The position numbers and the translations under genes were made by a program. This document shows positions 24,301 to 49,400 of a stretch of 64,000 bases of DNA, in pieces. The stretch's first letter is position 1, and each line of letters opens with the position of its first letter. The notes beneath the pieces are model-generated. The model was not told where the DNA came from and did not search any database. It saw only the letters and a list, made by a program, of their open reading frames with translations. Source of the DNA: Lepisosteus oculatus (lineage: Eukaryota; Chordata; Actinopteri; Semionotiformes; Lepisosteidae). The DNA lies in NCBI RefSeq assembly GCF_040954835.1, contig NC_090706.1, positions 25,739,148 to 25,803,147 of the forward strand, in the 5' to 3' direction.

Positions 24301-27300
24301 GGTCATTTCGTGACAGGATCAGGCTTAGGAAACTCACTGTATATTTACTGAAGCTTCAGAACCGTAATCGTGAGATCCTATCAGAAGGATCAGGCTTGCA
24401 CAGCAGTTGGTCACATGTTACTTAGCTGAACTTCTTGGTACTTGGAAAATTCTAAAACACAAGTGATCACTGTATATTCAAATGCTAGTCAATAGAATGT
24501 ACTGTTTCCTTTCTGGAATTTGTAAAATAATTTAATTATGCATTAATAGCTCATTACAACAGCGTCAGCTCATTACAACAGCTTCTTGGTTTATGGTTAT
24601 ATTAAATAATTATTAAGGTTTTTATCCTTATTGCTCTGTGGAGAAACTGCAAAGTACCCCTTCACATGGGGTATCGCCCACAGAAGTGATTAGTCATAAA
24701 AATTGACATATCACATCTTTGGTCATATGAGTTTACTAAGTATCCATTATAAAATTAAACTTCAATAATGCATGCTACATTTAAATGATAAATATTAAGA
24801 ATTTTAATTAGTGTAAAACAGTGTTTGCTGTCCCTTATGTATTTATAAAATCAAAAAATAAATATACCAAAAATATATTTTTAAAAAGTGTGTATAGTGT
24901 AACATTATTTAATTGTTGCATCACAAAGAAAGACCTCCAAGCTCCCATAGTGGAATCACAGAAACCTCAGAACAACCTGGAGTTATAAAAAGAGCTCAAG
25001 ACCAAAGTCCTAATTTAGGACATCTATGAGATAAATGCGAGGGTTTACAGGGAATACAAGAAGTTACAAGAAGAAATTACAAGAAGACCTTCTTAATGTA
25101 GTGACCTTCTAAAGATCATTTAACATTTTACCATTTAACCCGTTATAATATGACACTTAAACACAAAAATTCACTTCCAAGTAATAGAGACTGTATGAAT
25201 TAGTTTGAATGTCAAAATGTTAAGATAACACAAGATTTTTCTTCTTTTGTCTTGACTTAAATAGTGGAGAATGAGAGTCACTGTGATTTTGTGAAACTTC
25301 GCGAGATGCTGATTCGGGTAAATATGGAAGATCTTCGAGAGCAGACACACGCCCGGCACTATGAGCTGTACAGGCGTTGCAAACTGGAGGAAATGGGCTT
25401 CAAAGACACAGACCCTGACAGCCAGCCCTTCAGGTAACTCCTCCATCTTGACAAAAACACAGATCCTGATAGCTGGCCCTTCATAAAGCTCCTCCATCTT
25501 GACAAAGACACAGATCCCGATAGCTGGCCCTTCACACAGCTCCTCCATCTTGACAAAGACACAGATCCTGATAGCTGGCCCTTCACACAGCTCCTCCATC
25601 TTGACAAAGACACAGACCTCGATAGCTGGCCCTTCACACAGCTCCTCCATCTTGTAAATGACTGTGTTATTTCAGCTTAGGCTTTTATCATAACATTACA
25701 ATTATTGTTTTTTTAATGTGCAAATGTGGTCACAGCTTATACCTTTGGGTTTGCTGGAGTAATCCAGGTAAAGTAGACTCAGAGCCTTAAGTACTAATCT
25801 TTACTTGTCTGAAAAGAAAATTAACTCTAGAGACAGCTTGCACTAAAAGTTAATTAAAAACAAATCTCAATTTTTTTCTCAGAGATCAAACATTTTAAAT
25901 GATTACAGAAGATCAAAACATATCCCAGTTTTACCTCTTTCCTGATTAGAGAGTCCTCATGGATGCCTTTACCTGTTAGTGGATCAATAAGTTGTGGTTT
26001 AAGGGACACCCGCCAGATCACACTGACAAATAATATAGAAACCTTTTCCAGCACACAACAAACTGAAACCAAAAGACCAAAATTAAACTTATAGTTTTAA
26101 GACTGAAATAATTTGACAATTAAAATAAATAACAAAAAAATAAAAATGAAATACCCCACTCATATTTTTTAATCACTGGAGTAAATGCCAGCAGTCATCT
26201 CTGTCTGTGTTCATGAGGTAAAACCAGCCAGAGTCCATAGAGAAATCTCATGTCTTCGTTTTGTGTAGCTTGCAGGAGACGTACGAGGCCAAAAGGAAGG
26301 AATTCCTTGGGGAGCTCCAGCACAAGGAGGAGGAGATGAGGCAGATGTTTGTTAACAAAGTGAAGGAAACAGAAGCCGAGCTGAAGGAGAAGGAGAGAGA
26401 GGTGAGAGACGGAGGTGGGGTGTGCCCAGTGCTAAACTTCGGGACACAAGACACAACGGCTTTGTCTCTGCGCTGTGTCGCATTGAGTGTTGTTCTGAAT
26501 TGGGCACACATTTTCATTGACTGTCCGCGTGCTTGTTCAAAAGACTGTCCATTTTTGTAAGTTTTGGATCACAATAAATGGAAAGCTAGAACATCAGCTG
26601 TTTGAAAAATTATTTACGACTCATCAATTCTAATGACTGTTATCTTTGGTTACGTGTCCACAGAGAAGCTGTTTTCAAGAGATTGATTGGCGACTCTTCA
26701 TCGGTGACCTGACTTAACTGTCGACCTCTTTCCCTTGCTTATTTCCTCGCCCTCCTTTCAGCTGCATGAGAAGTTTGAGCAGCTCAAGAAGATGCACCAG
26801 GAGGAGAAGCGGAAGGTGGAAGAGAAGCGCCGGGACCTGGAGGAAGAGCTGAATGCCTTCAACAGGCGGAAGGTGGCAGCCGAGACGCTACAGGCGCAGT
26901 CCCTGCAGGCCACCGCACAACAGCCGCTGAAGAAGGACAAGGACAAGAAAAAGTAAGTCCTATCTCTTCTCTTTTTTTTTCCCCACTTCCTTTTTCTCCT
27001 CCTGGGCTGTGCCATGAGGGGCCAGTGTGAACACGTACAGTAGCAAATGTCTCTTCTCTATGAAAACTGGACGTGTAATGTGCAGATGAACCAGGGGAGG
27101 AGTGGATACTTCTGTCTGATGCAAGACAAGCCTCTCAATTTCTGCCCTTTATACCATTATTAAAATAATAAGTCCTGGCTTTTGAAGGGATTCATATTTT
27201 TCCATTTGGAAAAGGAAAAAAAAACTGAAACACTTTTACATTTATGGTGAAATTAGTCTGAGATTCAGATTTTGTTTGGTTTTAATACCTGTTACGTGAC

Positions 27301-28475
27301 ATACCTGTTTTTCTGAGGAAAGCCAGGCCTTTAAAGAAAAAATCGTGGCAGCTGAACTATGAGGTGTGGTTCTGGAGACACTTCTTGAAACAAAACAAAT
27401 CTACATTTGCATTTAATTGTTGTTTTTCATCTATACACCTGGAACAGATAATTAAAAGAAGTGCATAGTTTCAACTCCTTAATATTTAGTTTAGTATTTT
27501 CAGCCTGTAAGGGAAAATTTAACTTTTATTGGCATGGACACTCCAGGCTCTCATGTGGGTACAACGCAGTGTTGTCTTGGTACTTATTTCTATGACGGCT
27601 TCGTCTGTTATGAATTTGTCAAAATATCATTAAATTGCACAGTACATCTTTCCAAGTACATTTTTAAAAATGTTTTTGTTGGTTGTACTGGACATGCCAG
27701 TCTTAGACTTTTTATATAGATTTAAAAATGTGATTGGTCTTTGTATAGCAAATACTGTTGATACACCTATCAATCAGCCTTCTGAAATAAGGTTTAGCAA
27801 ATCTGTCTTTTTTATTTTTTCCATTTATCTAATCTAATATAGTTCGAAATTAAGTAAAACGTTTTGGAATCTTGCAGCTCCTCAGATGTTTTAACCTTAT
27901 TCATGTTAATATAAACACTTCACTTTTAGTATTTAAGAATTCAAATCATTTTCAACTCTGAAATGCAGCTTTTTTTCAAGGTCTTCTCAACTACTTATAT
28001 TTCTTGCGCCACCTATAGTCTCATCGAGGAAATTTTGCAATGAGTTTTTTATTGCGATCAGAAAGCTAGGCATTTATCAATCCTGAGCACTGCAGAAAAT
28101 GCCAGATAATTTCTTTTCATTGTAAAACTACAGGCTTCATTGTTCCTTGATTTATGTTTTCATATAAATGTATTCATTTATTCATAAATGATCAAAATAT
28201 TGTTTGATTTATTTAAACTGATATTAACTGATAAAATGAAATCCATATATCCAGTATTATATAACATGCAAAAAAACTCAGAACAACAGCACTTTTTCAT
28301 TAATTCTTTGTCTTGAGTTTTAAAATGTGGGGAAAACCATAATAGTTTTTAAAACGATCAAGTTCATTCAGTTAATTTTATGTCGCACTCCATATTTCAG
28401 TTGATTTATCTTTTTAATTTCACTTCATGTGTTTTTATTTAATTTTTGTGTTATTTCATGTTTTCTTTCAGTTAA
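9372..28475 (+). CDS. SEPT8: Septin-8, ten coding exons (short isoform)
   Basis: Filament-forming GTP-binding cytoskeletal protein of the SEPT6 group. Coding exons: 9372-9401, 16541-16655, 18187-18382, 19801-19987, 21839-22000, 22850-22946, 25265-25433, 26269-26401, 26762-26952 and 28472-28475, all with GT/AG introns and matching phases, giving 427 residues. The P-loop GETGIGKS is at 49-56, the G3 motif DTVG at 101-104 and the G4 motif AKAD at 184-187. The septin unique element follows, then a C-terminal coiled coil from about 325. The start [10 protein letters not shown] matches SEPT8 and not SEPT11. The last shared exon ends ...KDKDKK plus AA; the terminal exon adds T TAA, giving Asn-stop. 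SEPT6-group septins are known as poor GTPases. Intron 1 is 7.1 kb. An alternative last coding exon lies 8.7 kb further on, inside CCNI2. Confidence 0.95.
9402..16540 (+). other. SEPT8 intron 1
   Basis: Donor GTAAGT at 9402 and acceptor ...TTTGAACAG at 16540. The intron is AT-rich and no exon or known mobile element stands out. ORFs on both strands are short and show no family resemblance. The acceptor is a weak one, with purines close to the AG. Confidence 0.75.
17060..18003 (+). mobile_element. Internally deleted Tc1-like transposon in SEPT8 intron 2
   Basis: The right terminal inverted repeat ends ...CTTTTTCTTGTAACTG at 18003, followed by the TA target. The left repeat is recognisable from GTGAACCCTTTGG near 17070. 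Between them is only the 3' half of a transposase (about 17220-17676) with [18 protein letters not shown] and a QQDSDQKH segment. The 5' half, including the DNA-binding domain, is deleted, so the left repeat runs straight into the catalytic region. The family is the same as the fuller copy at 53766-55360. The frame carries stops and it cannot encode an active enzyme. Confidence 0.85.
18383..19800 (+). other. SEPT8 intron 3
   Basis: Donor GTATGT at 18383 and acceptor CTCTCTGCAG at 19800. I see no gene or named repeat inside. Confidence 0.75.
19988..21838 (+). other. SEPT8 intron 4 with possible retroelement remnant
   Basis: Donor GTATTG at 19988 and acceptor CTGCATAG at 21838. Positions about 21350-21500 (GGCTGTTCTTAAGTCTAGTGG and following) resemble a dispersed fish repeat I know by sight but cannot name, here degraded. 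No exon is seen. Confidence 0.6.
22947..25264 (+). other. SEPT8 intron 6
   Basis: Donor GTAAGT at 22947 and acceptor TAAATAG at 25264. It contains a small tandem duplication (CAGCTCATTACAACAGC twice, about 24548-24584) and a TTACAAGAAG-type triplication near 25060. No gene is seen. Confidence 0.7.
25401..25655 (+). repeat. 51-bp tandem array spanning SEPT8 exon 7 3' end
   Basis: Five units with a period of exactly 51 bases (starts at 25401, 25452, 25503, 25554 and 25605). The first unit is the last 33 coding bases of exon 7 plus the donor GTAACT and its flank. The other four lie in intron 7. Each later copy keeps the exon-derived part (GACACAGATCCTGATAGC type) but has lost the donor: the CAGGTAAC of unit 1 is CATAAAGC or CACACAGC. 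As 51 is 17 codons, the copies stay open in the exon frame after the first TAA. Confidence 0.9.
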
Positions 28476-28875
28476 TTAATGGCACAGGAAAACCCAGGCC
28501 GGACATGGATTTGTCTTCCATCACTGTAACAACAAGAACTTTTTTTTTCCTGACATTCCAACATTGATTGACATTTTGTAAGTGGACCAAAGAAAATTGT
28601 GGGAGGCAAGAACAGTTGCTTTGTATACAGACAATGGGTGATAATTGCTTTATGTGCTTTTTTCTATGATTAATAATGTTGTAAGTCAATTGGGACATTT
28701 TATCGAGAGTTTCACCTTTTCTGTTTCATTTAAGCCTTAGGCTTTCCTTTATGTATGGCTGGTAATGACTGATTTAAGAGAAGAGGATAAAATGGGTAAC
28801 ATTTTTTATTTCTTGGTACTAATGTCATACACTTAAGGGTTTTATTGAAGAAATAAAGTTTATGTACACTTATTT
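28476..28875 (+). other. SEPT8 3' untranslated region, proximal form
   Basis: Follows the TAA at 28473-28475. A canonical AATAAA lies at 28852-28857, giving a 3' UTR of about 400 bases. Further AATAAA hexamers downstream, including one near 34538, would allow much longer forms. Confidence 0.6.
28852..28857 (+). terminator. SEPT8 poly(A) signal
   Basis: AATAAA about 380 bases past the stop of the short isoform, the first canonical hexamer in the 3' UTR. Confidence 0.6.
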
Positions 28876-31800
28876 CCATATACTGGAAGATTTCTTTAGA
28901 GGACATTTCAAAGTCTTTATCAGTAGAGAGCGCCTCAGAATCTGAGCCAGGTCAGGCCTGTAATTTATTCCAATACAAGATGATTATGGATAAAGCAGAG
29001 TTTATAGTTGTCACCAAATTCAACTAGTTACAACAAGTCTAGAGAATATGAATTACTCTGGTGCTTTTTAATGTTTTTTTTATTAACAAATCCAGGTCTG
29101 TGGATGTCTTAAGGGCTTAGTTATATTTAAGAATTATACTTCAAATCGCATTTTTCTACTTTATGACTTTGTTATACACTAGAAAATAACAATGCTGTTT
29201 GATTTTATCTTGTACATATAAGCTATATAGGAAATTGAGATTCTGTAAGTAGTATGAGAGGTTTGACCGTTTACAGCGCTCAGAGGACATGTAGGGGAGG
29301 AAGAATGTAGCTTGAGCCTAGTTTCTTTTATTTTTTGGTGGAGGAAAATCTTGTGTATTTGCTTGTACTAAAAATAAAATGAAGACAACATTACTATGAA
29401 TAAATAACTCAGCCATGCAACTTTGCTACATACTGGGCCCCGAAGAGGCTGCTTTTGTTGCTGTGGAGTGAGTAATGTTAGCGCTCAGGCGTGAAGAATC
29501 AAATTATGTTATTTTACCCTACTTAATATTTTTGTCCTGTTCCGTGAAGGACTCCCCAGTCTTTGACAGGGACTTGTTATCCAGGTACATCCTCCCAACT
29601 CTGCTCCATGTCAGTTTTACACCAGAATGTGCTGTTTACTATTATACCAGCTCAAGCATAGACATTTGAATTGATCCAGTTTCAATAAGAAGTTATTATG
29701 CTTTATAAAATTACACTAGTCTTTAATTTCCTGTCCTGTCATCATTTGATCAAATTCCATGAAAACATGTTTTAAGTTCTTTAATGTTTTACCGTCCGTA
29801 TGTGTGAGTATACCAAGTGGCTTTTGACTCACTCTGTTTACACCTTAAACCTACAGAAATATCTTAATTAATTTGATATAATTAAGCCCTTTTGGAGAAC
29901 TTTGGTTGAACACATACTCTGTATTCAGTGTATTTAAAGACCTTTCTTGATAGGAAGAGTTCTCTGAAGACAAGTGGTGCAAGGTGCCAGTGTTACAATG
30001 CAATAAAATAAGTCATAATATGAACTGAGAAGTGAAGATGCCCTATGAATTTTTCAGCAACATCACTGATGTCCTAATTCTTCACTTGTATTTCTTATAC
30101 AGGGGAACAAATTCAGTTGCACTGGGAGTCTTAGAGGGTTGCAGGATATCAGAATTTCACAATAAACATGCCATTGACAGTGCTGATTTAATATTTGCTA
30201 GGTTTGTGCTAGGTTTTGACTGACTTCAAAGATCTTTACAAAACCATTTTTCTTTCAGATAAATAGTTCAAGCAAGGATAGTCCAGGGCTAGGAGTGCTG
30301 TTGTAGTTTCTGATTGCAACATTAAAGAGATCACATCACAATTCTTATTGCGCTGTATAACCTGTCTCAGTATTTCAGATTATTTCCAAGCACAGTCATT
30401 AAAGTAACTCAGGTTCGACGTACTGTAATATGGCAAAATAATTCTGGCTAGATAACTTGCTATACAAGTATATAATCATGACTGATACTGTTTGATAAAT
30501 TGTGTACCATGTGAATTAGGTATTCCTCCCTTGGAATATATTTTCAGGAAATAGGAAAATAAAATTTCTATGTAATTGTAAGAAGGGCCTTGTATAAAAA
30601 GAATGTAACCTGCTGGAGAATGTATTTGCTATAGAAGTAAAAGTGTGCAACAAATAGTTCTTACAAATGTAGTATGCAGATCAGTGATGTGTCCAGTAAC
30701 ATCAATATTTATTAAGTTTAGTGAGGACCTTTTTAACCAAAATGGTTCATATTGAATTGGGGCCTATGTATTCACTAGTACTAAACATTTCACCTATGTT
30801 AATATAGTTAAAACTGGCTTATGAGAAAAACTTGTCATTTAAGAATCTGTTATGGGTAGCACAGTGACGTAGTGGTTAGCATTACTGCCTCATAATGCTG
30901 GGGCAGTGGTTCATTTCCGGACCCGGGGTTTTGCATGTTCCCCCCCTCTGTTCAAGTGGGTTTCCTCCAAGTGCTCTGGTTTCCTCTTGCAGTCCAAATA
31001 CATGCAGGCAAGTAACTTGGTTTCTGGGAAAACTGGCCCTGGTGTGAGTGTGTGTTCCCTACGATGGATTGGCGTCCTGTCCAGGGTGTACCCCACTTTG
31101 TGCCCAGTGCTTGCTCTGGCACCCCTGTGTTCCTGAATTGGATGAAGTGGTTAGAAAATGGATGGATGGAAGAATAGGTTTAATCACTTTCTTAAACGGG
31201 ACCATTGTCGTTTCTAGACATTTCTCTTTGTTAGTTCTTCACTTTACTTACACTACCTGCATTCCATAATTCAGTATTCCCCTGTACAGGTTGTTCCTAA
31301 TGGCTGAAGTTTCACTAACTCGGCAGAATCCTTGTTTGAAACTGAGTAGTAGGTCTTTGCCATCGCTTGCTCTGTAGCTTTAACTTATGAACCCTTTCTT
31401 GCTGAATTTTTGGATGCGTATTACGATAGCAATCTTACTGGTCAATGGTGGTGTTCTTTTGTTTTCTGGTGTCCTGCTCTTGCAAACAATGTTTAAAGTC
31501 CACAATAATTTGCTAGTAAAGATAATCTGCAGAAAAGATTATGCAGCAAAATCAAAATGCTTATCTTGTGAGTAAAGATGCTGAAGAGGGGTGGGTGTAG
31601 AGTGTTGCACAAAGGATATAATTTTATAATCACTCTTAGCTTTATACATTTTGTATTCTATATAAAGGTTTGTAGAAGTTAGTAATGAGAGTAACATTTC
31701 AAATTCCCTTCATCTCCACTGTTATATATGTATTTTTCTATCACTTTTATATTCACTTAGCAATTGAATTGTGTTTTTGTAATGACACTGAGGAGAATTA

Positions 31801-34800
31801 CTTTTGTAACCAAGATTCTTTGGGGGGGGATAGATTTGCCCTTTTAGGGAATATGTCTGAGCAGTATAATGCATGTTACAGTTCCATACATTATGGCATT
31901 ACATGAATAATTACAGTTTCTATATTTTTTGTTTAATGGCTCATTTCTTTGTATCTATATTTTATTTGTAAAGTAAATCAGCCATGCTTGTTTTCAAGAC
32001 CTTTAATAATGACATATTTACAGGATAAAGGTGCACACGTCCGTATTTACTGTAAAATATCTCCATGGTGTACAATCATAATAAACGATTTTGTTATGTT
32101 ATCAATCACTCATCTCTATTTTTCTTATTGTGGTAATGTGCGTGTTTCCTGCATTGTTTTCGGTCGGGGGTAGTAAATCTTTCATTCAGACAAAAACCGC
32201 TTAACAGCCTTTTGTCTTTATTCTTTTTTTCCTGCAATGTGTAAGGTGGTTTTACATAATTTTATGGTAAGGGATAAATGTGACCTTTGAATTTATACCG
32301 GTTTCTGTTCCATGTTGTCTAGCCAATACAAACTGGATGGCACAAAACGGGTAAGAGGGAGGACAGGAAATAAAATAAAAATGATTAGTAAAGTGCTTTC
32401 AGTGCAGACGGCAAACCTGCACGGTGATGATTGTCTTCGCAGGCATGCTGCTATCAGTGAAGAATGAATGAATGAGTGACATTGCTTTATTGCTCCCTAT
32501 ATACACTTGTTCTTCACCAGCTTCTCTGGGTGTTACTTTGCATATATACAGAAAGCAACCTAATACAAGTCCTAACTAAAATATTACTCCTGCAGTTGTG
32601 TAAATGTGGAGCAAGAAATTCTGGCTTTCTGTGCATAAAATCATGTTGCTTTTAACTGTTTGACCATAATTTACTATATATGCAACCTTCTGTATTTAAT
32701 CACCCTTTCATATTTTGTACCCATCCTTTTCAAAAGTAGACTTGTCTAAGGGACTGCTGATGCATTCTTAAATTTTTGCTTGCGCTTTAGACATGCAGAA
32801 CTTTCTTTTCAAACAAATTTATACAGTAATTTATTTTTACAACAACTGTGTGACACATGTAGGATGATTTGTTTTGGTTTGTTTCTAATTCACATTTTCT
32901 CTCTCTTGATATTTACTAAAGGGTATGGTTAGTTTTAAAATGTCCCACCACGTTATTTTTAGTCAAGCTTGTGTTACCAGTCAAACCTGGTGTTCAGGGT
33001 TATGTTATTCTGGCCATTTAGAATGATTATGATTATTATGATTATACCTCCAGATTTTTCTAATTTGGCAGAATTCTTTTTATTTTTCCACATTTAGAAT
33101 CACAGGTTACATTATAAAATCCCTTGGTGCAATTAATTTATATTAGATATCTCATATTAGGGAGGATAGATTTACAGATCTACAGTTTGAAGATATACAG
33201 TATAGTGCAGTATATCCTTAGCAATTCTAAAATAAATCTTTAAACCCAACTGTAACAAAAGTATTTTGTTTGTTTATGTAAGCAATAATTTCAAGACCAT
33301 GGTAATTCCCCAACCAGGAACTTGACAGCAGAAATGTGTTTTATGTATCTTGCTCATCATCAATCAGCTACCACTTCCTATCCATTTCATAATCATGCCA
33401 AGAGCCTTTAAAAATAATTGGATGTATTTCATTAGCTAGTCAGGTTGTTTTTTACTTATGTTGCATTTCTGCTTCATTAATAACTTTTTACTGCACATTT
33501 AATGCAGACAAGACAATATTGAGACTCATTGCATGCCTCGTGTGCTGCCCATCTGTTAAGTTATGTTCAATGTGCTAGTCACTGACTTGCTGTTCTGTTT
33601 TTTTTCTGTAGTTTCTTTAGTCTTCCAAGTGCGTGCTCCTTAACATCAGGAAGACATTTTAATTAGAAGATTTATTAAAACCAAAACGCCACATGCTGAA
33701 GGAGTTACATTTGGTGCTGTCGCCTTTATGCTTCCATTAATTCACCACTTTAACTGGTGTAAATGCTGCAGACTAAAACTCTTGCCATTTGCTTCCTGTG
33801 AAAGTGCCCTCCAGTGGGCTTCCTGTAGACTTCGGATTGGTTTCTGCTGACCTGTCATTTCCAAATTCATTTGCTGATGCACGAGAACGTGGTTTCCTGA
33901 GAAATGTTTTCTTTATGTGGCCAAAGCTTTCTCCTACACTTAAAAATGCTTTCGTAAAGTGTTAAGTACATAATGTACAGTGTGGCTGATGCATTTGTTT
34001 GAGCTTTTTTGTATTGCTTTGGATTTGTAATAGCCTGATGTCATGCACTGTAACATTGCAGTTTTAAGCTTCCCAGCCACTCCTGCATTGGAAGGTTCCA
34101 GCATTCCTGAGCAATAAGCACTTTCCATTGTGACTTCACCTTGTTGTACATCAGTGCTGAGTACATTCAGCCTTTCCTTGCTGTGTTTAAGAGTCTCGTT
34201 TGAGTTCCTGAAGTGGGAAGGGTTATGATTGATAGTTTGACTTGCTGTTAACATACTGTATACTGTATTGCCAGATTAAAGATGCATTCATTTTTTCACT
34301 TAAAAACACAACTTGACAAACAATGCCTTCGTGGGTATACCATAAAGAAAAACTGCAATACTTTCATTTTGAGAAGAAAAAAAATATATTGGACACCTGG
34401 AAGAAAATTTTGACAATTTTGGAGATTTAAAAAAAAAATCAATGCATCTTAATCTTTTGCCCCCTACTGATTTTGGCCACCGTTTACCGATGGCTAAAAA
34501 CCAAAATGGTCCAGATTTGTATCTCTTATGCTTGCTACCAATAAAAACTTGTTTTTGAACTGTTCATTTGTATTTGATTTGATGATTTATAATTAATGTA
34601 AACATGGAAATATTTGCTCAGCTTGATCATAATATTTTCCCTTGGGAAAAATGTCCTTTTTCAAAACAAAAGGTTCCATAGGCAGTCAATCATTACTCCC
34701 TTTTTTGTAATAGTTTGTATGATTGGTTTTCTGCTAGAAAGAGCTGATACACTTCGGCGATTAAAAATATTGTTAAATATTTAACTTATCATACTGATGA

Positions 34801-35100
34801 GTAAAATATTGAATATACTTAAGTTTCAAACATGCCCTGCTTTCAGATTTATAAACCTGAAAGAGTCCAGGACTTGCCTGACTGCTCTAGAGCTGCTTTA
34901 TGGAAATTAAAATAAAGCAGTGTAGAGTATTTGAAAATGGATATGTACTGTATGACTGTGGTGCACTCAAAGTACTTACAGTACACTTTATACAGCTTTA
35001 ATTCCACTTTGTGATTTTTGTAAATGTGTAAAAGCAGGGAACATTTTAAATACCCAAAAGTCACATTTAAGTAAACATTCAGGAAACAAATCTGTAGTGA
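28876..35100. other. SEPT8-CCNI2 interval, no separate gene
   Basis: AT-rich sequence holding one V-SINE (30854-31170). It may be distal 3' UTR of SEPT8, and it is also intron of the long SEPT8 isoform, which reaches 37355. No ORF longer than about 100 codons resembles a known protein. Confidence 0.6.
30854..31170 (+). mobile_element. V-SINE, copy 1
   Basis: A tRNA-derived head (GTAGCACAGTGACGTAGTGG) is followed by the central V domain (TTTGCATGTTC, GGGTTTCCTCCAAGTGCTC, GGTTTCCTC, CAGTCCAAATACATGCAGG). The tail (GATGGATTGGCGTCCTGTCC, CTGAATTGGATGAAGTGG) ends in GGATGGATGG. This layout is typical of vertebrate V-SINEs such as the zebrafish DANA relatives. It is diverged and not in a coding exon. 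Confidence 0.8.
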
Positions 35101-35107
35101 ATTCATT

Positions 35108-36344
35108 TTTATTCATTAAATGGCAAAGGAAAAGAGTCTTTATAAAACATTAGGCATGAACTTCACAGTATATTATAAAACAAACTGAAGGTGCTTTTTA
35201 TAGTTTTTGGTCCCATCATAAAGGGAGGAAGTAATAAACATCTAGTTCAGTGGTACAGTTTTTATCTTATTTATATTCCTGTGCAACTTCATACTTGTTA
35301 ACAGGACACGCAATCTGCAACAGTCTTTAGCTGCCTTTGTATATATATATTTTTTTTTTCTAAACAGACAAGTTGATTCATACATTTCACAATTTCCACA
35401 TACGTACTTAGCTTATGAAAAGTAATATTTGGGTACATTAAGCATCACATTTTTTCAGTATAATAAACAAGCAATACTATGATTCTACACCATAATATTA
35501 AAAGGTGTAATTTAAAGGCTTTCAAAAGGAATCGCCATTTTAAAAGGAAATGGTTAACCAGATAGTTGTGGAAAAAAGAAGGTCTGCAATAAAGCAATGT
35601 TAAACCAAACAAAAGATAAAACAAAACTGAAGAAATAAATCAAGAGCAGTAAAAATCTATAAAAATAACGATCTCTAGAAATACTCCAAATATTTTACAT
35701 GGTAAGATATAAGACGTACTGTAGCTTTAATATCTTTAACCATTAGTTTTGGCACTCTTTTGCCACTTTTAAAACAAACCTTCATCCTCATATTGGATTT
35801 TAAACATACCTTGAGAAAGAACCTCTTAGTCCAAAATGTTTTTATCTGTAGAAATGATGTATGAAATTAGAAAACAAACTTCTTAAAAGTCTTAAAAACT
35901 GTTATAATCAGCTTTTGGAGTGTCTTAGAAAACAGAAGAGTATTAAAGGATTTGGATTTTTTTTTCCCCCAGTGAAATCTACATCCTAGATACTACAAGA
36001 GTTCTTGTAAAAATATAAAGCTACAAATCAGGATGCAACTTAAAAAAATAATTCCCTACACACAAAGCATTTTCCACTGTGGTAGGCTTACTGCTCTTTG
36101 TTTTGAAGGACAAGTACTTGCTGGAGCCTCTGACCTAGAAATTGAACATGTTTTTTTTGTGGCAGAAGATGCAGAATTCAAGCTGGAAAGAAACAGTATT
36201 ATGTCAAATGGTTTCTGAATGTGGGGCGACTCCCTGCGAATTTGAAGATGGTGTTCAGAGACTAGAAAGCACCAATGTCTGTGTGCAGGCTGCGCACGCC
36301 CTCACTTCTGCTCCCCTCAGCTCTGCCTTGTTCCCAGGAAGGCC
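35108..36344 (-). other. CCNI2 3' untranslated region
   Basis: Runs from the CCNI2 stop to a minus-strand AATAAA at 35108-35113 (plus strand TTTATT). Nothing else is recognised inside. The length of about 1.2 kb is an estimate from the first convincing hexamer, not from transcripts. Confidence 0.45.
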
Positions 36345-39300
36345 TTAGCTGACTGGAGGCTGAAGTGGAGGGCATGGGGACCCGTTTTCCTGCAAGGCCT
36401 CGTGGGGATTCACAGTATCGTTCCCTCCAACTTCCACGGCTATGCCTTCGTTGTACAAGCACCTGAAGCCATCATAGAACTCGTCCGCCTCCACCTCCCC
36501 ATTGTGCTGTTCGGCCTTCCTGAACTGGCACAGTACACGGCCTGGAAGACTGGGCTGTGTGGCTCGCTTTCTGAGGACTGCGGGGCAGAGCTCTGGGATA
36601 CTTCTTTCACAATACAGAGCGTCCCTGTTAGCTGGGTGGAAAATGTACACCGTGTTGGGTGGAAGAGAAAACTGGAGACCACTGAGGTACTGATCCACCA
36701 GTTCTTTGCAACGGATGAGCTCAGTGCTGTCGATCTGGAACAGAAAATAAAGGCACTTGAGAACAACTCTGCCAATAAGTGTAATACTAATAGGTCTGCA
36801 GAAGTTTAATTAGCTATGTCAGCATGCATAGGCTGCAAAGGAACAAGTAAAGGTTTATTCCATGCTGAAAAGAGAAGAGAAGAAACAGTTTCGGCTGTGG
36901 AGCCTTTTTCAGATAGTGAAGAAGGCTCAATAGCCGAAACTGTTTCTTCTCTTCTCTTTTCAGCATGGAATAAACCTTTACTTGTACCAATAGGTCTTAC
37001 ACTTTTGAGCTAACCTTCAGAATAGTGACACGTTCAAGCATTTGCCCTTAAAAAGCCAATGTCCTAGCTTTTAAAGGGAAATTTCATGTATGCAATCCAC
37101 AACATTTCTGTTTAAACTGTTACAAATGTTACATAATGTCAGTAAAATGTACATAAATATCAGTAAACTCCTACCTGTGCTTTCTTCAGCAGATCGGTAA
37201 AAACAGAGAACCAATCAGGAGTCAGCCTCTCCAGCTCCAAAGTTATGGTTGCCAAGGCCAGCGTGGAACCTTTGAACTGTGAGAGCTGGTGGCAGGCCAT
37301 ACAGTGCTGCACCTGCCTGGTCCATAGCTCGGCTTGGAGGGAAGGGATCTTCTGAGCAAGCACGCCAGGAAGACGGGGGTGGCTGGACAACGCCATGGCA
37401 TGGAACTGCGAATGAAATTGAGACCCATCAGCAATCTCCCACCCTCTATTGCTACAAACGTTATTCAGGCCCTTCCTTGCTTCATTTTCCCGTCTGTGTC
37501 TCTCACATCCAAGCTGGGGGGTGGGACGCCGTTCCCATTTTGCTACATGTTGTACTTGTCCATCGACTTGTCTGGACCGTCACTGTAAATTAACCAAGGG
37601 AAGACTACATATTTTTGGAATCCTGGTCTTGCCGACCAGCCTGTTTGTATTTGCCAAACTTGTTTCTATTGTCTTACTATTACGTTCTGTAATTTTGCAA
37701 AATGGTTTTTGGCTTTTGTAAGCTTTACATGTTTAGCGAATAAGCCATGTGTACTTCGGTTTACAGGTTGCACAGCTAAGGATCCTATCAGACTGGACAG
37801 AGGTTGAGAACTGTGGTTGTTGGTGGGATGGTTTATCATCAAGGCCAACGTTAGAAATTTGAAAGTCTTTAACTGGATTGGCCAAAACTCATAGGCGTCT
37901 ACCTCTAAAAAGGAGGGAGGATCACATTCCCTAAATGATGAAAGCAACCTCTTTTGTAAGGAATGTAATTTAATAATGTCTGGAAAGTGTCTTAGCTTAT
38001 TCTTATATAAAAACAGCAGTCATATCATAAGGTGGATCCTGCTGCTTATTCAGGGTGTTAGATATAGTTTATACAAGAGGAAAACCTGGCTAATGAAACA
38101 CAAATCTCAATTTTTGATCACTTATTAACTCTTGCTGCCGAGCCATCTCTGCAAAATCCTCTAGAAATGTCAGACTTTCTTACAAAGTTTGAAATGCAGA
38201 AAAATGACACCCCTGTGTCTAACAGAAAGTATTTTAAACCTTTTAAAGATGAAAGTTAGCTATTTAACAGTATTCTCTTAATCAACTTCAGGTGTTTGGG
38301 AGATTTTTTTGTTTTTTTGCAACCAGAGAGTGAATTCAACAATCCAATTTAGACAAATTAATTAACATATTTCAAACTTATGTGCTGAGCATTCCTGTAT
38401 GTGGTTAAAATAGTCAGGTTTTGATAAATGAAGCAATACAGATAACCCATTTTGCACTGATGGCACCAGTACCTGTTATCACATTATGTCTGAAAGACTA
38501 ATGCATTATCCCCCCCTCAAAAAGTCAAAGAACTAAGTATTTCCAACTGCCTTATTTTCTTATATAAATGTTTGAATATGTTCATATAAATAGATCATTT
38601 TATTTTGTAAAGCTTATCCACTGTAGAAGGCTTACAAATTAGAATAAATCTAATGTGAGAACTACTAAAGTGGCCTCCCTGTAGAGATAGAAGCATTAAA
38701 GATACAACAGTTGAGAATTGGAAGCTGTAGCATTTGTTGCTTATTTATTGCCTCTCAGTATACTATGAGTGTGAAATTCCTGTTACAGAGAAGCAGATTC
38801 AATTGTTTAAATGCAGAGCTATAGCAGAGAAAAACAGCATATTCACTTTGGCTACTGACCCATTTTTTAGATTGGACATTCAATCTTACCTATGCAAATT
38901 ATTAACAATCAAGATTCTCTTTGTACTCCATCAGTATTTAAGCACCACTGTCGAAAAAAAGTATTCTAATCTTTTTTTAAGCTTTATTCCACAGTCTCGA
39001 TTCATAGAGAACCAGAAAGGAGCACTGTTCTTACTTACAATGTTAAGAAAGTCGACTGGAGTTGCAATGTAAAGGTCCCAGTGCAGCTTGTTGAGAATGG
39101 TCCTCTCCATCCTTAGAATTTCTGCTGGTGAACATTTGCATCTGCTCTGCACTGCAAGATCCTTAACTGACACAATCACCTATTACAAGAAATATAAACA
39201 ATAAGCAAAACAATAAATGCGATTCTATCGAACTATACATTTTGTATTACATGTTTTTTTAATGTAAAACAGCTTTTCGTTAATGATGAGAATTCTAGTT

Positions 39301-46040: not shown

Positions 46041-46480
46041 CGACAAGGCTCTCTCAGACGGGCACTGTCTGATGACGCGCAGACCTGCGCCTTTTGCTAG
46101 TCGTTAAATTAATTTTAAAATCGATGTTTTATTGTTGAAAGCGGGGAGATCGTTATATCAACTTATTTACTCAAGACAGTGGTGGTCTATTCTATGGTAT
46201 TTTTGAGTTTTGACACTTTTGGAAGTGTCCCCCTGCAATTTTTAAGTTATGTAACGAAAGCCTTTAACTTGAGCTGTTTATCCAGGCTCGATGTCTAAAC
46301 GGGCACTGCTGAAGGTCGTGATGGCACTTAAAAAGTACTTTTCTATAATTCTTAGAAATGCATTCAATACAACGCCTCTGACTTTCCGTCTTTAAGATGC
46401 ATGGCCCATAGGAATAAGAAGTATGTCAAACGGAGTTTGTGTTAGTTTACGAAAGGCGTTTACTTTTCTTGCCGCATCAG

Positions 46481-49400
46481 ATGATTGACACGGTGGCGGC
46501 TCCCGAGACGACTTTTCCAGTCCAGCTGAAGATGCTTCTAGAACAGGAGGCCAGGTACCAACCCAAGCTCTGCGGCTTGAGGATCATCGAGTCCGCCCAG
46601 GACAACGGGCTCAGGATGACGGCGGCGCTCCGGGACTTCCAGGTGAAGGAGCTGCTGTCCCTGACTCGGTTCTTCGGCTTCAGTGCAGAGAGCTTTTCTC
46701 TGGCGGTGAACCTTCTGGATAGATTCCTGGCTCAGATGAAGGTATGCGTCGATTCATTGACCATAAAATGCTGTAGACCTGCTGTAGACCTGCTGTAGGT
46801 GGTGTGCCGGTGTTTTAGTGCTTGCAAACCATTCATTGATGCTTGATGTAAAAACGTGTATCACCGTTTGAAACTGTGTTAAAAGTATCCACCAAGCTAA
46901 TATCTTGAGACTTAATGTTGGCTGGTAGCTCTTGTTGGTGTTTGAAAGTTTATCACGTCCTTTCACACTCACTTTTCTTAAATTCTGCATTTAATATCTT
47001 GCACCATCTGAATAATTTCCTGAACATCAAACTTAAATCTTGATCCATATCGTCTACAAGCAGTAATGAAACTGAAGGGTAGTGCTGGGCATTTTGCTAT
47101 TTTTGAAAATTTTTTTTAACCTGTTAAAATGGATTTCTTCTTGCTTTTATGACTTACAATTGTACAACTCTGTTGTCCAGGTGCAGCCTAAACATCTATC
47201 CTGTGTGGGACTCTGCTGTTTCTACATTGCTGTGAAGGTGTCTGAGGATGAGAAGAATATTCCTCTGGCCAATGATTTAATACGGATAAGCCAGCACAGG
47301 TTTACTGTGTCGGACATGATGAGAATGGAGAAGATTGTTCTGGAAAAGCTGCACTGGAAGGCAAAGGCCACAACTTCTCTGCATTTCCTGAGGCTGTATT
47401 ACTCGCATGTCATTGAGCAGATGCCTGCTGAGAGGTACAGAATCTGTGTAAATAGCAAGGAATGTTCTAGAGTGCTACTCTTTTTGTTTTTGGAATAGGA
47501 AACCTAAAGAGCCATTGGTTCTAAAATAAATGCAAAACAAGTTTTGTGGGGGGAAAAAAGGAAAAAATATTACTGTATTAGTTTTGTGCATTGTTTAAAA
47601 ATATTTGTCTGTTAACTAAGTGCATACATTAAGCACCCTTTAATGAATGAATGCTTTATGTCTAAGATATACCAAGATTTCTAAAGGTTTTCACTCTTCA
47701 TGTTTTAGAAAGAAGATGCTGAACATTGAACGATTAGAAGCTCAACTGAAAGCTTGCTACTGTTGTTTTTCCTTCTCCAAAGTAAAGGTAAGAGAACCTT
47801 TGCTAGTTATCTAAAGTTTTATATTGACATTATCTACTGTTACTAACTTCCTGTTAAAGGAAGTAACTTATTTTCTGAATTGAAAAAGTTTCAGAAGCTG
47901 TTAAGGTTAATGCACGCCAATATAGTACTACCATAGCATCTGTCAGCTATTTGAATATAGCAGAATATTCAAGCATTTACCTCTTGTTTTATCAGATTCT
48001 ACTTTGGGTACAAATGTAGCAAATGTAATGTTTGTCCATTTTGCTGGTAAATGTAGTGAATCTTGTTAGATTAGTCTGGGGACACCGTCAATTTCCATAG
48101 TTCAGTGTTCCTCTTGCTTTTAAATCTTAACTATAAATTGTTCTGACCTGTTTGATGTCTATATTGTAAGGTTTTTTTTAGACCTATTGTAATTATGCCT
48201 CACAGATATTGTATGCAAGTTGCAATTTTAGGTATAGTTGTTTTTTTTTAGTTCCAGGTACTTGAACCTCGCAGTTAAAACCAAATGTGCTTGAGATAAG
48301 TTGAAATGCATCTGTGGACTAGTGGAGATTACACATGTAGTCTCAAACTCTTTAGATTGTGTTTTAGTTGAAGGCATTTCATCAGTTTGCTTCTTATGGA
48401 TTTTCTTGGCATTTCAGTATTGATAAAGGTTGAGCTTCAGTCTTGTCTTGATAAAAGCTCTAATCAGTAACTTTTTACAGCCCTCTCTGCTTGCACTGGC
48501 TGTATTAGCTTTGGAGATCCAGGAACAAAGCCTCCATGAACTGACAGAAGAGTTCCAGAGCCTCAAGCAGTATTCCAATGTAAGTGTCAAGGAATGTTTG
48601 GACGAAGGCATTGAACTGGGGGGACAGAGCTGAATATAAACTGTAACCTAAGCTTTTGCACAAACTAAATTCTAAATGTTTTTCTGAAGTGGATATGTCA
48701 ATGGCATCATATTCATCCTGTGTGATAGAATGGTTGCCACCAACTAAGATTTCCTGTGCCATGTTCAAGTCTTTTTGTTACCTGAATCACTTGGTTTCTC
48801 CTTGTTTTTAGTGAGAGGCACCAGCACTTATTCATATTGAGTAATATGAATATCAGTGTTGATGGGAAATTTATGTCTTAAGTTTTGGATCCTTTGCTAA
48901 TCTTGCATTCATGTTTCAAGAACATGTAGCTGAAAGGATCGTTTTAAAGCAGCTGAGTCAAATGCTGCACGTTTTGCTTTTGAGACTGAATTACTGGTGG
49001 ATGTGTAGATGAAATTTAGTACTACTGAAGCACCTACATAATGAGCCTGAGTCAGTTAATTCACAAAGTTACAAGTCTGAGTGATGAAGTTTGGGGAAAA
49101 ATATTGAATGTACACTTTTCAGTTGAAATCGCCTTTTCACAATTATTCAACATGATTAAACTTGCAGCCTATCTAGGCATGCCTTGATTGATAATGTATT
49201 AATGTATTTGATTTAGCAATCTTTAGGGTTTCTAATTGTAGAGTAGTAAAATACTTTAAGCCAGTTCAGACTCTATTTCTTTATCTGATGAAGTTTATCA
49301 ATATATATATTTCTGGGATGTCAAATCCATTTTTTGTAGTGTTAATACTGCTCCGTAATGAAACCTTTTGAGACAGTTGCTTGAATGGTCTGATCCAGTT

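Follow-up and report, generated by a model that had tools for sequence, protein, structure and literature searches.

Probable overprinting of a SEPT8 C-terminal tail antisense to CCNI2 exon 5 in Lepisosteus oculatus

The closest described parallel to the locus analysed here is TRalpha2/Rev-erbalpha (THRA/NR1D1), a pair of convergent neighbours in which one gene has an alternative last exon that codes antisense to its neighbour, and in which alternative processing decides whether the overlapping last exon is used (PMC4569393, from the excerpts available). TRbeta and Rev-erbbeta are also convergent neighbours (same excerpts of PMC4569393). The TRalpha2/Rev-erbalpha overlap, the best-studied of its kind, is confined to mammals, being interrupted in the opossum and not expressed in the platypus (PMC4569393 and PMC3047299, both in excerpt).

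The closest described relative of the exon itself is in mouse Sept8, which has alternative last exons 10a and 10b. According to the available portions of PMC6092797, NOVA, bound close to the poly(A) site of 10a, permits read-through and favours 10b, and motoneurons use 10b more than the spinal cord as a whole does. Exon 10b encodes palmitoylated C469 and C470, with R475 and R480 nearby, and 5-10% of the protein is palmitoylated in transfected cells; isoform knock-down reduces dendritic branching and leaves spines nearly gone, and rescue is partial with X1 and nil with X5 or the Cys-to-Ser form (same portions of PMC6092797). The C469S/C470S form loses both palmitoylation and rescue, and the Cys pair of the 10b tail is reported to promote dendrite and spine growth. 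Palmitoylated Sept8-204 is reportedly the subject of Liu et al. 2023 and 2024.

Within the window, by which we mean the whole 64,000-nucleotide stretch that was analysed, a septin gene on the plus strand and a cyclin gene on the minus strand are convergent neighbours that share a segment in which each strand carries an open coding exon. We consider it probable, at roughly 0.84, that 37175..37405 is a true sense-antisense dual-coding exon, in which a SEPT8 tail is overprinted on CCNI2 exon 5. By the character of its sequence, the pair seems to be a rare antisense coding overlap of the TRalpha2/Rev-erbalpha kind. Unlike the TRalpha2 exon, the SEPT8 tail is contained entirely in an internal exon of the cyclin, occurs in this genome and presumably also in human, and has a host gene that is reported lost in mouse and rat while the tail exon is kept in mouse. 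The SEPT8/CCNI2 overlap would be much older than that of TRalpha2/Rev-erbalpha.

The plus-strand septin is assigned to SEPT8 from its matches. It has a Pfam Septin match of 1.8e-90, with a GTPase domain and a C-terminal coiled coil to ...KDKDKKN; its top PDB match is Septin-8 6wsm (1.5e-24), with Septin-6 second (3e-16), and the 6wsm chain aligns through ...KDKDKKN, which are that chain's last residues. The last shared exon (26762..26952, plus strand) encodes the end of the coiled coil, ...KKDKDKK, and is followed directly by the donor AAAAA/GTAAGT, with GTAAGT at 26953 in phase 2 (slashes mark splice boundaries). Directly before 37190 is the acceptor CTTTCTTCAG/C (CTTCAG/C), and when 26952 is joined to 37190 the frame is kept through a split Asn codon, after which 54 residues are encoded. 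The coding part of this alternative last exon, the counterpart of mouse exon 10b, is at 37190..37355 on the plus strand and amounts to 166 nt up to and including the TGA at 37353-37355. Thus the plus-strand acceptor, the phase-compatible 166-base exon and the stop described in the first-pass annotation are all in the sequence.

The pyrimidine tract and tandem acceptor, CTTTCTTCAG/CAG/ at 37170..37192 on the plus strand, are the antisense of cyclin Leu-Leu-Lys-Lys codons, and choosing the second AG of the tandem CAGCAG (37187-37192) would swap Asn-Arg for Lys, giving ...KKSVKTENQ. The cysteine cluster noted at the outset is found as Cys-Cys-Thr-Cys codons at 37305..37316 (plus strand), antisense to cyclin Gln-Val-Gln-His, and its first two Cys are, from their place in the sequence, the likely counterpart of the mouse palmitoylated pair. 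As in mouse SEPT8-X1, the same gene has an alternative last exon with an adjacent Cys pair and with a basic residue 10 after the second Cys, but five residues beyond the second Cys mouse has Arg and this tail has His, and the opposite strand here serves as a cyclin exon. In terms of the mouse motif, then, the Cys pair and the R480 counterpart are present and the R475 counterpart is His. In the presumed human tail, the spacing of Cys, Cys, Arg and Arg agrees with mouse C469, C470, R475 and R480. By homology with mouse SEPT8-X1, we infer that the Cys pair of this tail is palmitoylated.

A candidate start of exon 10a lies at 28472..28475 on the plus strand, TTTTCTTTCAG/T TAA, with its acceptor at 28470; it would end a short SEPT8 isoform at ...KKN, and within 26953-37190 just two sites of this form, this one included, reach 14 or more pyrimidines in 20. 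The long SEPT8 transcript has a candidate poly(A) signal, a consensus match, at 38643..38648 (plus strand), the first AATAAA or ATTAAA 3' of the tail stop. YCAY sites counted near the poly(A) signals of candidate exon 10a form no clear cluster, and we therefore claim no NOVA control for this locus. When the tail was used as a query on its own genome, the matches were this locus, the antisense of CCNI (5.4e-7) and one chance-level match (E 6.8), and a degenerate pattern of the tail core had 0 matches in each of the viral_contigs and genome_contigs collections. Searches with the septin model gave many weak matches at 35.2-37.0 Mb of contig C14, several of them within exceptionally long open frames of up to 1287 aa, which presumably represent a large family of other P-loop NTPases.

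On the minus strand, CCNI2 exon 5 occupies 37175..37405, a total of 231 nt that account for the 77 cyclin codons first noticed there, and encloses the septin tail's coding part in full, in antisense. Both of its splice sites are present, the acceptor as ...ATTCGCAG and the donor as CACAG/GTAGGA, and the approximately joined CCNI2 exon pieces have a Pfam Cyclin_N match of 8.2e-16. Exon 5 matches, in its own genome, itself, one paralogue on contig C3 (54% identity) and one chance-level sequence (E 0.28); the naming of the copies as CCNI or CCNI2 rests on the septin neighbour and on presumed human sequences. The CCNI2 intron beside exon 5 holds a palindrome at 36840-36988 with two 72-nt arms, 94% complementary, and a 5-nt spacer. 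This is a dispersed MITE-like repeat with at least 80 matches on many contigs (from the best 40 of 1732 candidates scored), which correspond to fewer copies than matches since both strands of each copy match. A second cyclin, presumably CCNG1-like, lies beside CCNI2 at 46418-47498 on the plus strand (Pfam Cyclin_N 6.7e-22), and CCNI on C3 has weak second-cyclin matches on the opposite strand, ∼9.5 kb upstream of the first matched CCNI exon; the gene pairs of cyclin I and cyclin G look like an ancient duplicated block.

The register of the two frames determines how much of the tail is supplied by the cyclin. Codon positions 1 and 2 on the plus strand pair with positions 2 and 1 of a single cyclin codon, and the two third positions lie opposite one another, as the first-pass annotation had stated; thus, the plus-strand residues are largely set by the cyclin, and it is mainly the wobble base that is free to be adjusted to just one of the two proteins. 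By the genetic code, a plus-strand stop requires cyclin Tyr, or His or Gln after a codon ending in T. With the cyclin protein fixed and the wobbles random, the 54 antisense codons are open in about 9-22% of draws and 25-27% of draws put a stop at codon 55; neither openness nor the stop is significant by itself. Six exon stretches of CCNI2 and CCNI read in the tail register have one antisense stop per 39-76 codons (that of CCNI2 exon 5 being the tail's own stop), and therefore 54 open codons are unremarkable. The acceptor AG is the complement of Leu CT; every wobble-only draw retains it, as do 66-81% of full synonymous draws. We therefore rejected acceptor, phase, open frame and stop as strong evidence, since they are by-products of the cyclin residues or likely by chance. 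The first-pass annotation had ranked acceptor, phase and stop strongest, a ranking that does not stand: the acceptor follows from cyclin Leu-Leu-Lys-Lys and also occurs in CCNI, and the stop is a one-in-four event. The stronger arguments are a test restricted to wobble positions and the reported absence of CCNI2 from mouse and rat together with the presence of the tail exon in mouse.

These chance levels for openness and stop are what would be expected if the cyclin alone were under selection, the antisense frame merely looked conserved and open because the third positions are opposed, and no septin exon were made here. The authors of PhyloCSF dropped 234,336 antisense-frame regions (PMC6886504, in excerpt).

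Identity of the tail to its human counterpart was assessed against a null in which the cyclin residues and codon positions 1-2 were held fixed. The references, here and below, are what we presume to be the human SEPT8 tail and the human CCNI2 segment. The tail is identical to the human tail at 36 of 54 residues, in agreement with the earlier estimate of about two thirds; the expectation is 29-30 (P 3e-5 to 9e-5), and with a null of 29.3 and sd of 1.7 this identity was reached in 1 of 20,000 draws.

For a test confined to wobble positions, we counted only sites at which a cyclin-synonymous wobble change alters the plus-strand residue and at which the human residue is reachable from the first two bases, which dropped 41 of 54 codons for CCNI2 (42 of 54 for CCNI, and 44 of 54 in the reverse test). 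All 13 free tail residues equal those of the presumed human tail, where 6.0-6.6 are expected (P 3e-5 to 8e-5, with 6.6 and 8e-5 obtained when the exon's own wobble composition is used). These sites are Trp, Cys, Glu, Lys, Ser, Met, Ile and Arg codons, spread over tail positions 17 to 51. The 13 sites are few, and synonymous identity by descent would weaken the test: if half of the wobbles are assumed unchanged by descent, P is 0.019 (0.024 with exon composition), and if 60% are, P is 0.047. In the reverse test, 9 of the 10 cyclin residues left free by the tail match human, with 4.8-4.9 expected (P 0.005-0.007). On this sequence evidence, both strands look constrained. The central claim of the first-pass annotation, a SEPT8 alternative C-terminus antisense to CCNI2 exon 5 with both frames selected, is supported.

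The CCNI ohnologue provides a natural control. On its antisense strand the acceptor motif TTCTTCAGCAG recurs, 49 codons are free of stops, and 30 of 54 residues agree with the presumed human SEPT8 tail (26.8-27.0 expected, P 0.05-0.07). The CCNI antisense carries Trp-Trp-Ser-Cys, not Cys-Cys-Thr-Cys, and its stop comes 5 codons earlier. In the free-wobble test CCNI matches at 9 of 12 sites (expected 5.75-6.0, P 0.05-0.07), which is mildly raised and not significant; part of the wobble signal may be compositional or ancestral. Over the same stretch of cyclin protein, the presumed human sequences and this genome agree at 39 of 56 residues for CCNI2 and 35 of 56 for CCNI, a small edge that neither helps nor hurts the case for dual coding. 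The CCNI control favours selection on the cyclin alone in so far as its acceptor motif, open codons and tail-like residues arise where no septin was found, but the Cys-Cys-Thr-Cys codons, the position of the stop and the match at every free tail residue speak against it, and we regard that explanation as quite improbable.

The same control bears on the age of the overlap. The CCNI exon at C3:66568550-66568771 reads ...NQSGQHFSSSKVTIASARVEPLNCSS... in antisense behind the acceptor motif TTCTTCAG, with no septin found nearby, and this reading might be left over from an older overlap or be nothing more than a by-product. In human, SEPT11 and CCNI are convergent neighbours, an arrangement that parallels TRbeta/Rev-erbbeta. 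Together with the acceptor motif, the frame and the weak wobble excess retained by CCNI, this arrangement might indicate that the overlap predates the vertebrate whole-genome duplications and that the SEPT11/CCNI side lost it, which is a variant in age of our preferred explanation. We find this variant doubtful, as the 100 kb around CCNI contain no convincing septin exon (four chance-level matches, E 0.2-0.6), the septin model has none on C3 among the matches listed for this genome, no other tail-like sequence occurs in the genome, and the CCNI wobble excess is not significant.

The overlap appears, from the presumed human sequences, to be in the same register in human as it is here. The presumed human SEPT8 long tail and CCNI2 segment, a comparison proposed at the outset, are compatible at all 55 codon pairs (54 residues plus the stop), whereas 100,000 shuffles average 7.3 and never exceed 19.

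Rodents offer a second line of argument. Mouse and rat reportedly lack CCNI2, and chicken CCNI2 protein expression has been published (PMC5256034). The mouse tail is expressed and functional (PMC6092797, in excerpt), although its cyclin partner is reported gone, and therefore the tail is not merely a shadow of a selected cyclin. This argument combines two papers, and the orthology of 10b in it rests on gene position and on the spacing of Cys and Arg; the available portion of the main text of PMC6092797 makes no mention of Ccni2.

The wobble bases could instead be conserved by RNA-level elements, such as splicing enhancers of either gene, in an exon that is spliced but whose tail residues matter little. 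The exon structure has both genes splicing here, and the wobble test is blind to the difference between protein and RNA constraint. The bias, though, was scored as residue identity and is spread along the tail, and the mouse C469S/C470S form is without palmitoylation or rescue (PMC6092797, in excerpt), so that we consider a purely RNA-level explanation very improbable indeed.

If the dual-coding reading is correct, SEPT8 transcription would run past the proximal last exon 10a, which would yield the short isoform ending in ...KKN, and the last shared exon would be spliced to 37190, with 54 codons translated through CCNI2 exon 5 in antisense. The palmitoylated pair of the Cys-Cys-x-Cys tail would then take the septin to membranes, promoting filopodia and the branching of dendrites. 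Of the two readings, that of the cyclin is probably the ancestral one, because CCNI has the same exon, and the septin tail would have been overprinted on it. The acceptor and a largely open antisense frame would have pre-existed as by-products of the cyclin residues, and selection would later have fixed wobble bases to suit the tail. Ray-finned fish and tetrapods split some 400 million years ago. We would give even odds to the full history, in which the tail was overprinted by that split, the dual frames were kept wherever CCNI2 was, the tail outlived the cyclin in rodents and NOVA couples the two genes.

Among the literature matches listed, to which subscription papers are mostly external, we found no account of the SEPT8/CCNI2 coding overlap, which genome browsers may well show. 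Four tail peptides sought in paper texts gave no match, and nothing on this exon was found in the available portions of PMC4978525 and PMC7341584. An overlapping-gene survey counted 51 human and 28 mouse opposite-strand coding overlaps in 13,484 orthologous gene pairs (PMC2335118, in excerpt). Like the case here, these are exon-exon overlaps on opposite strands, but the survey required one-to-one human-mouse orthologues, and since CCNI2 is reported absent from mouse, the SEPT8/CCNI2 pair would escape it. The antisense frame in which third positions are shared was left out of one genome-wide coding scan (PMC6886504); this is, on the excerpted description, the register used by SEPT8/CCNI2, and this exclusion may be one reason that the overlap has gone undescribed.

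If true, this would be a very old opposite-strand overlap whose overprinted part has a function described in the literature. It would offer a worked route to a new protein part, in which a cyclin supplies an acceptor and a nearly open frame and selection needs mainly wobble changes, and the free-wobble test, combined with lineages that are missing one partner, would be a way to recover real cases among discarded frames. In rodents, the selected relic of the lost CCNI2 would be its reverse complement. Where both genes remain, the NOVA-driven neuronal switch to the tail exon would also produce RNA complementary to CCNI2 mRNA, and would thereby couple SEPT8 to CCNI2, a CDK5 activator.
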